This document shows, one piece after another, positions 29,343 through 35,740 of a stretch of DNA of 64,000 bases. Origin of the DNA: Methanocaldococcus fervens AG86 (GTDB taxonomy: Archaea > AGJL01 > Methanococci > Methanococcales > Methanocaldococcaceae); NCBI RefSeq assembly GCF_000023985.1, contig NC_013156.1, positions 1,166,363 to 1,230,362 of the forward strand, in the 5' to 3' direction. Made by a program: the position numbers and the translations under genes. Position 1 is the first letter of the stretch; every line of letters begins with the position of its first letter. Below the pieces are notes generated by a model. The model was not told the DNA's origin, did not search any database, and saw only the letters and a program-made list of their open reading frames with translations.

Positions 29343-29406
29343 AGAGGGATGATGATACATCGATGTGCTGAAATAATGATGATGAACGCGCCCTTCTCTG
29401 ACCTTA
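29343..29406 (+). ncRNA. Box C/D guide RNA (3 of 3)
   Basis: The boxes are C ATGATGA at 29349-29355, D' CTGA at 29368-29371, C' ATGATGA at 29379-29385 and D CTGA at 29398-29401. A short terminal stem pairs AGGG (29345-29348) with CCTT (29402-29405), including one G-U pair. Both guides are 12 nt. The D' guide matches UCGAUGU of a conserved 23S rRNA region for 7 nt only, so I do not assign a target. A TATA-like TTTTTATATA lies just before it, too close for a normal start, so processing from the rpo transcript is possible. Confidence 0.88.
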
Positions 29407-29497
29407 ATAAATAAAATTGATATGATTTTTTGACATTTTTATCATCCAAAAAGTATATAAATATAGAGGAACTATTATCAAAAACCAAATGTTCTTA

Positions 29498-29587
29498 CCG
29501 GTAGGGAGTTAGGACTTTCGTAGGAATGAATATTTTTAGAAGTTAAAGATATATCTACCTACGAAAGTCCTAAAAAAATCCCTCCGG
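29498..29587 (+). other. Long stem-loop before the L30e-nusA-S12-S7-EF2 cluster
   Basis: A perfect 16-bp stem is formed by TTAGGACTTTCGTAGG (29509-29524) and its complement at 29558-29573, with a 33-nt loop. Outside a 1x5 internal loop the helix resumes, with CCGG and AGGGA (29498-29507) pairing to TCCCTCCGG (29579-29587) apart from one bulged T. It ends 27 bases before the L30e ATG. I do not recognise it as a known riboswitch or leader. It could be an mRNA leader, an RNA processing signal or an independent RNA. Confidence 0.75.
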
Positions 29588-29613
29588 AGTAAAAAATGAG
29601 AAGGAGGGAGAAT

Positions 29614-29928
29614 ATGGACGTAAATAGGGCAATTAGAACTGCAGTAGATACAGGTAAAGTAATATTAGGTTCAAAAAGAACAATGAAGTTTATCAAACAC
29701 GGAGAAGGTAAGTTAGTAGTTATAGCTGGAAACATTCCAAAAGATATTGAAGAAGATGTTAAATACTACGCTAAATTATCAAACATCCCAGTTTATCAAC
29801 ACAAAATCACATCATTAGAACTCGGTGCAGTTTGTGGAAAACCTTTCCCAGTTGCTGCTCTTTTGGTTTTAGATGAAGGGCTTTCAAACATCATGGAGCT
29901 GGTAGAGAATAAAGAAGGTGGTGAATAA
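29614..29928 (+). CDS. rpl30e: Ribosomal protein L30e
   Basis: L30e is a 104-residue member of the L7Ae/L30e family that binds kinked RNA in the large subunit. It begins [23 protein letters not shown] and contains [16 protein letters not shown], typical of archaeal L30e. The ATG at 29614 follows AGGAGGGAG; an upstream in-frame ATG at 29596 precedes that site and is rejected. Its stop overlaps the nusA start by one base. Eukaryotic L30 controls its own RNA, so the stem-loop just upstream deserves attention. Confidence 0.96.
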
Positions 29929-30452
29929 TGGCTAAGGTAAGATTATCAACAGAAGAAATTATGAAAATTGGTTTTTTTGAAAAAATTGCTAACGTTCCTA
30001 TAATTGACTGTATATTAAATGATGAAAGGGTTGCTTTTATTGTAAAGGAGGGTGATGTTGGAGCGGCAATTGGGAAAGGGGGCGAAAACGTTAAAAAAGC
30101 TGAAGAAAAGTTTGGAAAAAAAGTTGATATCATTGAATACTCAGACGATTGGAGAAAGTTTATAAGAAATATATTTGCTCCAATACAATTAGAGGATGTT
30201 TGGGTTAAGAGAGTTGGAAAGGATGTAGTTGCTTTTATTAGAATAAATCCAAGAGTTAGAAGAGCGGTTTTTGGAGAAAAAGGTAAAAACTTAGAAAGAG
30301 CTTTACAAATTTTGAAAAGACATACAAAAATTACAAAAATAAAAGTTATTATTGACAATCAAAAATTTAAAAGAAAAAAAGCAAGAAAACCTGTAAATGA
30401 AGAGCAACAGCAAGAGCAGGCTGAAGCTAAGCAGGAGGTAAAGAACGAGTAA
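29928..30452 (+). CDS. nusA: Archaeal NusA-like KH-domain protein
   Basis: This 174-residue protein consists mainly of two KH domains, as is usual for archaeal NusA. The KH loops are visible in GAAIGKGGENVKKAEE near residue 45 and VFGEKGKNLERALQI near 110. The C-terminal tail is rich in Lys, Gln and Glu and likely disordered. It is thought to act in transcription termination or antitermination, but the archaeal role is less defined. It overlaps the L30e stop by one base and precedes S12 by 94 bases. Confidence 0.93.
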   Translation: MAKVRLSTEEIMKIGFFEKIANVPIIDCILNDERVAFIVKEGDVGAAIGKGGENVKKAEEKFGKKVDIIEYSDDWRKFIRNIFAPIQLEDVWVKRVGKDVVAFIRINPRVRRAVFGEKGKNLERALQILKRHTKITKIKVIIDNQKFKRKKARKPVNEEQQQEQAEAKQEVKNE

Positions 30453-30546
30453 AAATATTTATATGTATATGTGATTTGAATTATCATGAATAATATTATT
30501 AATACTATTACGATGCTAAACCAATTAAAAATAAAAGGTGAAGATT

Positions 30547-30993
30547 ATGAGTGGAAGTAAATCACCAAGAGGAGAATTTGCTGGAAGAAAGTTGAGATTA
30601 AAAAGAAAATGGTGCAGATGGCACGATTACAACTACGTTAGGAGAGTTTTGAAATTAAAGCAAAAGTATGACCCATTAGAAGGAGCTCCAATGGCAAGGG
30701 GAATAGTTATTGAAAAAGTTGGTTTAGAGGCAAAGCAGCCAAACTCAGCTATCAGAAAGTGTGTTAGAGTTCAGTTAATTAAAAACGGTAGAGTTGTAAC
30801 AGCATTCTGTCCAGGAAACCATGCTATAAACTTCATTGATGAACACGATGAGGTTATTATTGAAGGTATTGGAGGTCCTAAAGGGCCAAGAGCTAAAGGG
30901 GACATTCCAGGAGTTAAGTATAAAGTTATAATGGTCGGTAGAAACTCATTGAGAGAATTAGTTAGAGGAAGACAGGAGAAAATCAAAAGATAA
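30547..30993 (+). CDS. rps12: Ribosomal protein S12 (uS12)
   Basis: This 148-residue S12 is part of the decoding centre. The conserved loops [29 protein letters not shown] and [12 protein letters not shown] are present, including the KQPNSA loop. The ATG at 30547 follows AGGTGAAGATT; the GTG at 30538 is within the binding site. It is followed by S7 after 48 bases, the classic str order. Confidence 0.97.
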
Positions 30994-31041
30994 ATCCATT
31001 ATATTTAATTTATTAAAAATTTGGAAGGATGAGGTGGTAAT

Positions 31042-31617
31042 TTGGAGCTTGACGAAATTAAGATATTTGGAAGATGGAGTACAAAGGATGTTGTTGTTAA
31101 AGACCCTGGTTTGAGAAACTACATAAACTTAACTCCAATCTACGTTCCACACACTGCAGGAAGATACACAAAGAGACAATTTGAAAAGGCAAAGATGAAC
31201 ATTGTTGAGAGATTAGTAAATAAAGTTATGAGAAGAGAAGAAAACACAGGTAAAAAATTAAAAGCATTGAAAATAGTCGAAAATGCTTTTGAAATAATCG
31301 AAAAAAGAACAAAACAAAACCCAATTCAAGTTTTAGTAGACGCAATTGAAAACGCTGGTCCAAGAGAAGATACAACAAGAATCTCTTATGGGGGAATTGT
31401 CTACTTACAATCAGTTGATTGTTCATCATTAAGAAGAATTGATGTAGCTTTAAGAAACATTGCCCTTGGAGCATACATGGCTGCTCATAAAAGCAAAAAA
31501 CCAATTGAAGAAGCATTAGCTGAGGAAATTATTGCTGCTGCAAGAGGAGATATGCAGAAAAGCTATGCAGTTAGAAAGAAAGAAGAAACAGAAAGAGTTG
31601 CTCAATCAGCAAGATAA
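31042..31617 (+). CDS. rps7: Ribosomal protein S7 (uS7)
   Basis: S7 nucleates the head of the small subunit. The 191-residue protein has [15 protein letters not shown] at the start, [22 protein letters not shown] in the middle and the long C-terminal helix that ends basic. It starts with TTG at 31042 after GAGGTGGTAAT. It lies between S12 and EF-2 in the conserved str arrangement. No anomaly was seen. Confidence 0.97.
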
Positions 31618-31705
31618 ATTATATATTTTTCAATCTCTGCCGAAATTTTCTGCCTATAAACTTAATTTTATAAAATTTTTAACAAACTAAAATAAGGTGA
31701 AGGTT

Positions 31706-33886
31706 ATGGGAAAGAGAGCAAAGATGATTGCTAAAATTAAAGAATTGATGGAAAAGTATGATAGGATAAGAAACATTGGAATCTGTGCACACATTGACCA
31801 CGGAAAAACAACATTATCAGATAACCTATTAGCTGGAGCAGGAATGATTTCAAAAGAATTGGCTGGAGAGCAGTTAGCTCTTGACTTCGATGAAGAGGAG
31901 GCTCAAAGAGGTATCACAATCTTCGCTGCAAACGTTTCAATGGTTCACACCTACGAAGGAAAAGAGTACTTAATTAACTTAATCGACACACCAGGACACG
32001 TTGACTTCGGAGGGGACGTTACAAGAGCTATGAGAGCTATTGACGGGGCCATAGTTGTTGTCTGTGCAGTTGAAGGGGTTATGCCACAGACAGAGACCGT
32101 TTTAAGACAAGCATTAAAAGAGAGAGTTAAGCCAGTTCTCTTCATCAACAAAGTTGATAGATTAATTAACGAGTTAAAATTAACACCTGAAGAGTTGCAG
32201 AGCAGATTCATTAAGATTATCAATGATATCAACAACTTAATTAGAAAGATGGCTCCAGAAGAATTTAAAGACAAATGGCTCGTTAGAGTTGAAGATGGAA
32301 GTGTCGCATTTGGTTCAGCTTACAACAACTGGGCAATTTCAGTTCCATTTATGAAGAAGAGTGGAATTACATTTAAAGACATCATCCAATACTGTGAAGA
32401 AGACAGACAAGAAGAGTTAGCTGAAAAAGCTCCATTACATGAAGTTGTTTTAGACATGGTTATTAAACATTTACCAAGCCCACCAGAAGCTCAAAAATAC
32501 AGAATTCCACACTTATGGAAAGGAGATTTAAACTCAGAAGCTGGAAAAGCTATGCTCAATTGCGACCCTAATGGGCCATTAGCAGGGGTTATTACAAAGA
32601 TTATCATGGACAAACACGCTGGAGCTGTTTCCGTCTGTAGATTGTTCAGTGGTAGAATTAGACAGGGAGACGAAGTTTACATGGTAAATAGCCAGCAAAA
32701 GGCAAAGATTCAACAAGTTTCTGTCTTCATGGGTCCAGAGAGAATTCCTGTAGAGAGTATTTCAGCAGGAAACATCTGTGCATTGGTTGGTTTAAAAGAG
32801 GCATCAGCAGGGGAAACAATCTGTTCTCCAGATCACATAATTGAACCATTCGAGGCTATAACACACATCAGTGAGCCAGTTATTACAGTAGCTATTGAAG
32901 CTAAAAACACAAAAGATTTACCAAAATTAATTGAAATATTAAGACAGATTGCAAGAGAGGACCCAACAGTTAAAGTAGAGATTAATGAAGAGACTGGAGA
33001 GCACTTATTAAGCGGTATGGGAGAGTTGCACATTGAAATTATCACAAAATTGAAGATTGAAAGAGATGCAGGAATTCCAGTTGAAGTAGGTCAGCCAATC
33101 GTTGTTTACAGAGAGACAGTAACAGGACAATCACCAATGATTGAGAGTAAGTCTCCAAACAAACACAACAAGCTCTACTTCATAGTAGAACCATTAGAAG
33201 AAGGAGTTTTACAAGCATACAAAGAAGGTAAAATCCCAGACATTGATACAAAGAGAAAATTAGATGATAAAATTGTTCAAGAATTAATCAAAGCAGGAAT
33301 GGATCCAGAAGAAGCTAAGAGAGTAATGTGTGTCTACGAAGGAAACGTTCTCGTCAACATGACAAGAGGTATTGTCCACTTAGATGAAGTTAAAGAATTG
33401 ATTATACAAGGATTTAAGGAAGCTATGAGAAACGGTCCATTGGCAGCAGAGAAGTGTCAGGGAGTTAAAGTTAAATTAATGGATGCTGTCTTACACGAAG
33501 ATGCAATCCACAGAGGGCCTGCTCAAATGATTCCAGCTGCAAGATTTGGTATTAGAGATGCAATGATGCAGGCAAAACCAGTATTGTTAGAGCCAATGCA
33601 ATTCGTCTACATCAACACTCCTCAAGACTTCATGGGAGCAGCGATGAGAGAAATCAGCAACAGAAGAGGACAAATCTTAGATATGGAGCAAGAAGGAGAT
33701 ATGGCAATTATTAAGGCTAAGTGTCCAGTTGCAGAGATGTTCGGATTCGCTGGAGCTATTAGAGGAGCTACCCAGGGTAGATGTCTCTGGAGTATAGAGT
33801 TCGCAGGTTATGAAAAAGTTCCAAGAGAAATGCAAGATCAGTTAATTAAGCAGATTAGAGAAAGAAAGGGACTTAAATTGGAGTAA
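31706..33886 (+). CDS. fusA: Translation elongation factor 2
   Basis: EF-2 is the GTPase that drives translocation. The 726-residue protein has G1 AHIDHGKTT near residue 27, [16 protein letters not shown] and the C-terminal loop DAIHRGP in which His602 should be converted to diphthamide. The ATG at 31706 follows AGGTGAAGGTT; the GTG at 31697 is inside that site. It ends the S12-S7-EF2 run; EF-1A downstream has its own TATA box. Confidence 0.97.
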
Positions 33887-33944
33887 TTATTTTCCAATCC
33901 CTTTAAATTTTAATTTAACATCTTTTTGTCTTATGACCAAAAGA

Positions 33945-33952
33945 TTTATATA
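33945..33952 (+). promoter_or_regulatory. TATA box of the EF-1A gene
   Basis: TTTATATA preceded by a purine-rich CCAAAAGA (BRE-like) lies 125 bases upstream of the EF-1A ATG. The predicted start is near 33,975, giving a leader of about 100 nt. It is one of the strongest promoter matches in the window and implies that EF-1A and S10 can be transcribed apart from EF-2. Confidence 0.7.
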
Positions 33953-34076
33953 CCCCCTAATTAATAGTTATATCACCACAAACCACAAATTGTGTATTCT
34001 TATTCCAACTTTGTTAAGTTAAAACTTAACACCATTTTACAAAAAAATAAAAATAAAATAAAATTGGTGATGAAAT

Positions 34077-35363
34077 ATGGCAAAGCAAAAACCAGTATTA
34101 AACGTAGCATTCATTGGACACGTCGATGCAGGTAAGTCAACAACAGTTGGAAGATTATTATACGACAGTGGAGCTATTGACCCACAGGTATTAGAAAGAT
34201 TAAGAAGAGAAGCTCAAGAAAAAGGTAAAGCAGGATTCGAGTTTGCTTACGTTATGGATAACTTAAAAGAAGAGAGAGAAAGAGGGGTTACAATTGACGT
34301 AGCTCACAAGAAATTCGAAACCCCAAAATATGAAATTACAATTGTTGACTGTCCAGGACACAGAGACTTCATTAAAAACATGATTACAGGAGCTTCACAG
34401 GCAGACGCTGCTGTCTTAGTTGTCGACGTTAACGACGCTAAGACAGGAATTCAGCCACAAACAAGAGAGCACTTATTCTTAGCAAGAACATTAGGTATTA
34501 AGCAATTAGCTGTTGCAATCAACAAGATGGATACAGTTAACTACAGCCAAGAAGAATACGAAAAAATGAAAAAGATGTTATCAGAGCAGTTATTAAAAGT
34601 CTTAGGTTACAACCCAGACCAAATTGACTTCATTCCAACAGCTTCATTAAAAGGAGACAACGTTGTTAAGAGATCAGAAAACATGCCATGGTACAAAGGA
34701 CCAACATTAGTTGAAGCTTTAGACAAGTTCGTACCACCAGAAAAACCAGTAGACTTACCATTAAGAATTCCAATTCAAGATGTCTACTCAATTACAGGGG
34801 TTGGAACCGTTCCAGTTGGAAGAGTCGAAACAGGTATCTTAAAACCAGGAGACAAAGTTGTCTTTGAACCAGCTGGTGTCCAAGGAGAAGTTAAGTCAAT
34901 TGAAATGCACCACGAACAAATCCCACAAGCAGAACCTGGAGACAACATTGGATTCAACGTTAGAGGGGTTAGTAAGAAAGACATTAAGAGAGGAGACGTT
35001 TGTGGACACCCAGACAACCCACCAACAGTTGCTGATGAATTCGTAGCTCAAATCGTTGTCTTACAACACCCAACAGCAATTACAGTTGGTTACACACCAG
35101 TCTTCCACGCACACACAGCACAAGTTGCATGTACATTCATTGAGTTAATGAAGAAATTAGATCCAAGAACAGGGCAAGTCATTGAAGAGAACCCACAGTT
35201 CTTAAGAACTGGTGATGCAGCAATTGTTAGAATCAAACCAACAAAACCAATGGTCATCGAAAACGTTAGGGAAATTCCACAGTTAGGAAGATTCGCTATT
35301 AGAGATATGGGTATGACAGTTGCTGCTGGTATGGCAATCGAAGTTAAACCTAAAAACAAATAA
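34077..35363 (+). CDS. tuf: Translation elongation factor 1-alpha
   Basis: EF-1A delivers aminoacyl-tRNA to the ribosome. The 428-residue protein has [11 protein letters not shown] near residue 13, a [11 protein letters not shown] switch, [15 protein letters not shown] and NKMDTV, then the two beta-barrel domains. The ATG follows GGTGATGAAAT. Codon choice leans strongly to favoured codons such as AAC and TTC compared with neighbours, as expected for a highly expressed gene. S10 follows after 71 bases. Confidence 0.98.
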
Positions 35364-35434
35364 ATTCTTTTAATTAACCTTTTTAACCCCATTTTTATTT
35401 TTTTATAATTTAAAAGAGGTTAAGAGGAGGGAGT

Positions 35435-35740
35435 ATGCAAAGGGCAAGAATTAAGTTATCAAGTACAGATCACAAAGTTTTAGATGAAATTTGCAGACAG
35501 ATAAAAGAGATTGCTGAAAAGACTGGTGTTGATATTTCAGGGCCAATACCATTGCCAACAAAGGTCTTAAAAGTTGTTACAAGAAAAAGTCCAGATGGAG
35601 AAGGTTCATCAACATTTGATAGATGGACAATGAAGATTCATAAGAGATTAATTGACATAGATGCAGATGAAAGAGCTTTAAGACACATCATGAAAATAAG
35701 AATCCCAGATAACGTTCAAATAGAGATACAGTTTAAATAA
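35435..35740 (+). CDS. rps10: Ribosomal protein S10 (uS10)
   Basis: S10 is a 101-residue head protein of the small subunit. It begins [20 protein letters not shown] and contains [18 protein letters not shown] and [11 protein letters not shown], all conserved. The ATG follows GAGGAGGGAGT. It closes the str-type block. An AT-rich gap with a 10-bp hairpin separates it from the convergent engB. Confidence 0.97.

Follow-up and report, generated by a model that had tools for sequence, protein, structure and literature searches.

What does a large hairpin immediately before the ribosome binding site of an archaeal L30e gene do, and to which transcript does it belong? To our knowledge, few cis-regulatory RNAs have been recognized in archaea. 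Autoregulation by L30 in yeast and by L7Ae in archaea is already known, and the locus described here makes a strong candidate for a leader through which archaeal L30e controls its own synthesis. It lies within the window (the whole 64,000-nt stretch of Methanocaldococcus fervens AG86 DNA that was analyzed; Table 1), in which an earlier note had marked a two-part stem-loop at 29498-29587 and offered two explanations, L30 autoregulation and RNA processing. From comparison with relatives and with the organism's own rRNA sequence, we consider it likely that 29478-29613 is an L30e-binding autoregulatory leader of the L30e/str mRNA. Autoregulation by L30e has gained strong indirect support, although the probable binding site is the adjacent element at 29579-29609 and not the marked hairpin itself. 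Such a case, only 31 nt long and involving one protein, bears on whether archaea already had the L30e autoregulation that is known in yeast.

The hairpin and the transcript that carries it

Read directly from the sequence, the 90-nt hairpin is present as it had been described. A perfect 16-bp helix (UUAGGACUUUCGUAGG at 29509-29524 with CCUACGAAAGUCCUAA at 29558-29573) is separated from a 9-bp outer helix by a 1x5 internal loop, with G29508 facing AAAAA at 29574-29578. The predicted energy is -48.2 kcal/mol over 131 nt (z = -6.97; none of 200 shuffles reached it) and -41.2 over the 90 nt of the hairpin (z = -7.7). On inspection the internal loop lacks tandem G.A pairs, and it was discarded as a kink-turn. 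The whole element occurs once in its own genome. It is a composite, consisting of a MITE-derived upper helix, the outer helix, which is older than the inserted upper helix, and a conserved element just 3′ of both. The outer helix and the conserved element share one strand: UCCCUCC (29579-29585), within UCCCUCCGG, doubles as the anti-Shine-Dalgarno strand of the hairpin next to L30e, and the CCCUCC of the outer helix is also complementary to the Shine-Dalgarno (SD) sequence.

A BRE/TATA promoter (CCAAAAAG and TATATAAATA) is found at the same place in the leaders of most relatives. Judging by TATA spacing, transcription is predicted to start near 29478-29485, giving a leader of about 130 nt. Its place between the C/D RNA and the hairpin assigns the hairpin to the leader of the str transcript itself and argues against an intrinsic terminator. 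It also bears on the second explanation of the earlier note, that the hairpin is where processing divides the rpo from the str transcripts. Location between the two clusters is what recommends that idea, and a conserved promoter at 29446-29463, together with the lack of an upper helix in G002, G008 and outside the genus, leaves it unsupported and, in our estimation, scarcely credible. The C/D box sRNA, conserved in the genus, is located between rpoA2 and the L30e promoter. In Rfam searches of the region and of the whole window, C/D RNAs alone came at or near significance, and no family was returned for the conserved leader element; matches to miRNA families were set aside as palindrome noise.

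Table 1. Features of the L30e leader and its surroundings (window coordinates)
Feature	Position	Strand	Remarks
C/D box sRNA	29345..29404	+	Upstream of the promoter; RF00095, 40.2 bits, E = 5e-7 (gathering score 45)
Promoter of the L30e/str transcript, BRE CCAAAAAG and TATA TATATAAATA	29446..29463	+	Position and sequence conserved across Methanococcales leaders
Outer helix, 5′ strand, CCGG-U-AGGGA	29498..29507	+	U29502 bulged; upstream competitor able to capture the anti-SD strand
Remnant of MITE-like palindromic repeat, terminal repeat TAGGACTTTCG[CT]AG	29510..29572	+	Forms the upper helix 29509-29524 / 29558-29573
Outer helix, 3′ strand, UCCCUCCGG	29579..29587	+	Pairs with 29498-29507, 9 bp
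GGAGU, 5′ (n) strand of the Kt-58-like internal loop	29586..29590	+	Identical to own 23S helix 58
Terminal loop, AAAAAAU	29591..29597	+	Could close with a single A-U pair; sequence differs among genera
GAGAA, 3′ (b) strand of the Kt-58-like loop	29598..29602	+	Identical to helix 58; invariant in the 27 element-bearing leaders
GGAGGGA, Shine-Dalgarno	29603..29609	+	Partner of 29579-29585 when the hairpin is closed
rpl30e (eL30), first gene of the str-type cluster	29614..29928	+	Start AUG 29614
Rest of cluster: NusA-like KH protein, S12, S7, EF-2, EF-1 alpha, S10	29928..35740	+	ORFs identified by inspection

The upper helix as a mobile repeat

Judged by its sequence, the upper 16-bp helix is an old MITE-like insertion. 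Its arms recur as one further inverted pair in the same genome, at the leader of the uL3 gene, and in relatives they are the ends of a dispersed palindromic element of ~91 bp, with 37 matches in G001, 34 in G003, and 33 in G006. Many of these copies terminate in TAGGACTTTCGCAG...CTGCGAAAGTCCTA. Copies of the family are bracketed by 6-bp duplications (TTAGAA, TTCCAA, TTAAAA, TTCTAA) that appear to be TTNNAA target duplications; the uL3 site is occupied in G000, G001 and G006 and empty in G003 and the other species, and a further copy of the repeat sits between unrelated genes. Dispersal with terminal inverted repeats, and, for family copies, target duplication and occupied/empty polymorphism, are the marks of a MITE. 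The L30e leader copies of G001, G003 and G006 show a 75-77% match to the full-length repeat, and no target-site duplication is recognizable around the leader copy. Copy number is very unequal among Methanocaldococcus genomes, about 35 versus 0-4 (loci L246-L276 in G001, G003, G006).

Dispersal of the arms as a repeat had been named in advance as a sign against a functional hairpin. It is found for the upper helix (the uL3 pair, and some 35 copies in relatives) and not for the outer one. Similarly, the view that no archaeal element of this kind had been described holds for an L30e leader, none having been found in the literature searched (a study of termination in M. maripaludis, PMC10450193, contains nothing on one), and fails for the repeat: palindromic repeats of M. 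jannaschii were described by Suyama, Lathe and Bork in 2005, as cited in PMC2229807. Those repeats and archaeal MITEs are likewise short palindromes dispersed in Methanocaldococcus.

Comparison of the stem across relatives, which the earlier note had called for, shows full pairing over the inner 10-14 bp in all ten Methanocaldococcus that carry the insertion, around loops of 12 nt to about 90 nt. The ten differ by G-U changes and, in the window species, by one replacement of C-G with U-A. Pairing kept in this way would fit selection on the stem, the sample being small. The insertion probably survived by entering the loop of the outer helix, where it would merely have lengthened that helix, and the leader illustrates how a mobile repeat can be tolerated, perhaps even exapted, within the leader of a ribosomal protein gene.

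Four other leaders (L111, L112, L114, L116, from G030, G031, G023 and G026, respectively) carry an independent hairpin, GAGG/GGGG-A-CUUC-ACUGA...UCAG-GAAG-CCUC, which fills the place of the Methanocaldococcus hairpin and pairs the same CCUC strand.

A conserved element over the ribosome binding site

Conservation is concentrated mostly beyond the reported hairpin. The element CCUCY-GGAGW-loop-GAGAA-RGAGG (29579-29609) begins in the 3′ arm of the hairpin and runs past its end, and the 3′ strand of its helix is the SD sequence. A helix of at least 4 bp enclosing GGAGW, 4-14 nt and GAGAA precedes L30e in 27 of 34 Methanococcales leaders, drawn from all five genera; it is absent from the remaining seven (G012 and six of genus g3), so some lineages can do without it. 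Columns of the core are on average 93% identical, against 48% just upstream. A 26-nt core pattern, CTCYGGAGWAWAWAATGAGAARGAGG, is single-copy in 22 of 36 genomes and always stands before L30e; no other copy of the core was found in the window's own genome, a search with the reversed pattern as a control gave no match, and shuffled leaders contained the pattern in 6 of 20,000 cases. Changes in the SD-hiding helix preserve pairing, with C-G, U-G or U-A at the innermost pair and C-G, A-U, G-U, U-A or U-G at one outer pair; because the helix hardly varies, the column-shuffle test falls short of significance, with 75 of 500 shuffles reaching the observed covariation value.

Several features of a kink-turn (k-turn) are present. 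Tandem G.A and A.G pairs, drawn from GGA and GAA, can form beside the CCUCY/RGAGG helix in the 27 leaders; UGA can serve as the L1-L3 bulge, and 3b.3n is A.G, as in Kt-58. A canonical C-helix is missing, the window leader having one possible A-U pair and an A-rich loop, and for this reason the element is classed from its sequence as Kt-58-like or k-loop-like, not as a complete standard k-turn. A register that makes CCU/AGG the C-helix and CYG the bulge was rejected: it is broken in G022 (AAAGAGG), where CCUCY/RGAGG pairing is kept.

An upstream AUG at 29596 lies 18, 19 or 20 nt from the L30e AUG, depending on the species; among others, G007, G008, G013, G023 and G034 have it out of frame, and in G018-G020 it is replaced by CUG. 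Variable spacing and the CUG replacements speak against a conserved start or uORF. The M. jannaschii L30e was deposited with the upstream start, and the solved L30e chain in PDB 3cpq (110 aa) begins six residues before MDVN, which corresponds to that AUG (window 29596-29613). The comparison suggests that the true start is the next AUG, at 29614, and that 3cpq starts one AUG too far upstream.

Another account can be built from the same material, in which an ordinary leader has merely received a repeat, and the core is no more than a strong double SD sequence with a conserved upstream start codon. It draws on the dispersed palindrome in the upper helix and on the deposited M. jannaschii start. 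We judge it very improbable, since the upstream AUG drifts out of frame or becomes CUG in relatives while the flanking RNA stays fixed, and an SD sequence alone leaves the CCUCY strand and GGAGW unexplained.

Likeness to the Kt-58 site of 23S rRNA

What might recognize the element is suggested by the rRNA of the same organism. A k-turn scan and reading of domain III located GCCCGG-GGAGU-GCC[GUAAU]GGC-GAGAA-CCGGGC about 1,615 nt into its own 23S gene, which by position and A.G at 3b.3n we infer to be Kt-58 in helix 58. This 3b.3n pair has been published for Kt-7, Kt-46, Kt-58 and Kt-78 (PMC4382518), and is found at the present site and at three other strong k-turn sites of the same 23S rRNA. 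The leader loop GGAGU/GAGAA is identical to the Kt-58 loop at all 10 nucleotides. The two differ beyond the loop, where the rRNA has a GCC/GGC C-helix and the leader only a short A-rich loop. In the rRNA of relatives the loop is GGAGU or GGAGA with invariant GAGAA, and the same two forms occur in leaders; leader and rRNA agree in form in Methanocaldococcus, G034, G035, the Methanococcus-type genomes G014-G017 and G020, and G022, and differ in G033, G030 and G023.

L30 is reported to bind the helix 58 k-turn, a site described for eukaryotic ribosomes, as well as a k-turn in its own mRNA (PMC3706390). Besides overlapping the ribosome binding site, the window leader thus resembles the place on rRNA where the encoded protein is expected to sit, as do the rRNA-mimicking leaders of ribosomal proteins treated by Eckert and Weinberg (2020), whose archaeal list comprises S15, eL15 and L4, without L30e (PMC7247131). 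With leader and rRNA loop comparable inside one genome, the present locus is a clear case of such mimicry. The window protein is clearly L30e, with 34% identity to human L30; its KPFP supplies an aromatic residue at the place of the required one in human KYYR.

Archaeal L7Ae, a homologue, was shown experimentally to hide its own SD sequence by binding a k-turn in its leader (PMC5539422, PMC6298567). The l7ae leader (Daume et al. 2017; Huang et al. 2019) likewise combines a leader k-turn, a ribosomal protein of the L7Ae family, and a hidden SD; it differs in having a GAU bulge, whereas the window leader precedes rpl30e, has a would-be UGA bulge, copies Kt-58, and has a competing upstream strand. 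Could L7Ae, or another protein of its family, be the ligand here, so that the str operon would respond to free L7Ae? L7Ae binds nearly all k-turns, has folded each one on which it was tried and has leader k-turns on its own mRNA, and the nearly missing C-helix resembles a k-loop. The gene directly 3′, however, is that of L30e, and what the loop reproduces is the reported L30 site on rRNA rather than the GAU-bulge form of the l7ae leader, so that we regard L7Ae as an unlikely ligand.

A model for L30e autoregulation

With L30e as the preferred ligand, regulation would run as follows. L30e in excess over rRNA would bind the Kt-58 mimic in the loop 29586-29590 / 29598-29602, and binding would stabilize pairing of UCCCUCC (29579-29585) with GGAGGGA (29603-29609), hiding the SD sequence and blocking L30e initiation. 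When L30e is scarce, UCCCUCC may instead pair upstream with CCGGUAGGGA (29498-29507), which would leave the SD free. The 90-nt hairpin would then be the open-state helix, lengthened in Methanocaldococcus by a MITE that entered its loop and persists there as a perfect stem.

Partition functions for the window leader put the open fold at 0.37 and the closed fold at 0.63 at 37 C; at 75 C the corresponding values are 0.79 and 0.18. They come from nearest-neighbor energies that leave out stacked G.A pairs and hyperthermophile conditions. SD-like upstream partners of CCUCY (GGAGG, GGGG, AGGG) are present in most genera. When upstream sequence was shuffled, the observed value was reached in 0-5 of 100 cases in seven of ten Methanocaldococcus; for the other three (the window species, G007 and G013) the figure is 10-11 of 100, and for G034 and G035 it is 0 of 100; partners in G033, G022 and G018-G020 are not unusual by this comparison. 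Because the partner stands out from shuffles in some genera only, the upstream competitor is less certain than the L30e site.

Near-balanced folds that shift with temperature also invite the idea of a protein-free conformational or thermal switch, in which L30e translation depends solely on how CCUCY divides its pairing between the SD and the SD-like strand upstream. Such a switch would need neither a conserved GGAGW/GAGAA purine loop nor identity with Kt-58, and we think it quite improbable.

Relation to yeast RPL30 and other archaeal loci

Closest to the proposed L30e leader is yeast RPL30, where a protein of the L30e family likewise acts on its own mRNA through a k-turn overlapping the initiation region. 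The yeast strands, which we take to be GACCGGAGUGUC and GACGCAGAGAUGGUC, have CCGGAGU and GAGAxGG in common with the window leader. At 3b,3n the yeast k-turn is U.G (PMC5061560), consistent with these strands. RPL30 differs in that splicing as well as translation is affected, in its full C-helix, and in lacking a Shine-Dalgarno sequence. Sulfolobus L30e binds and regulates yeast L30 mRNA, according to work cited in PMC5539422, and the authors of the L7Ae study supposed that archaea already possessed L30e autoregulation.

Among 73 other archaeal L30e loci, two leaders of the unrelated Micrarchaeota (L038, L040) have GGAGU/GAGAA hairpins with real C-helices within ~20 nt of L30e, and three identical Micrarchaeota loci (L071-L073) have a GGGAA form, GGAGU/GGGAA, near the L30e start. 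A broader scan found that 5 of 72 archaeal L30e loci fit, against 0.8 expected from shuffles; on inspection, many others run on from the upstream gene without a leader. These matches suggest that a Kt-58-like element is either wider than Methanococcales or arose repeatedly.

A larger idea would connect these cases: an ancient L30e feedback common to archaea and eukaryotes, acting through a Kt-58 copy over the ribosome binding site that is essentially the yeast RPL30 site, with the Methanocaldococcus MITE retained as a switch stem and the Micrarchaeota as further cases by descent or convergence. We put this forward tentatively, leaning slightly against it.

The uL3 gene may offer another ribosomal protein leader of interest, a candidate recognized from a hairpin separate from the L30e element. 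It has no Rfam match, and a search for a corresponding 23S site, as for a copy of rRNA, found none. The hairpin, AACCUGAAAAGSC...GSCANUGACAGGUU, is present in most Methanococcales examined (e.g., L144:1460-1500, minus strand, and C1:689553-689700 in the window genome).
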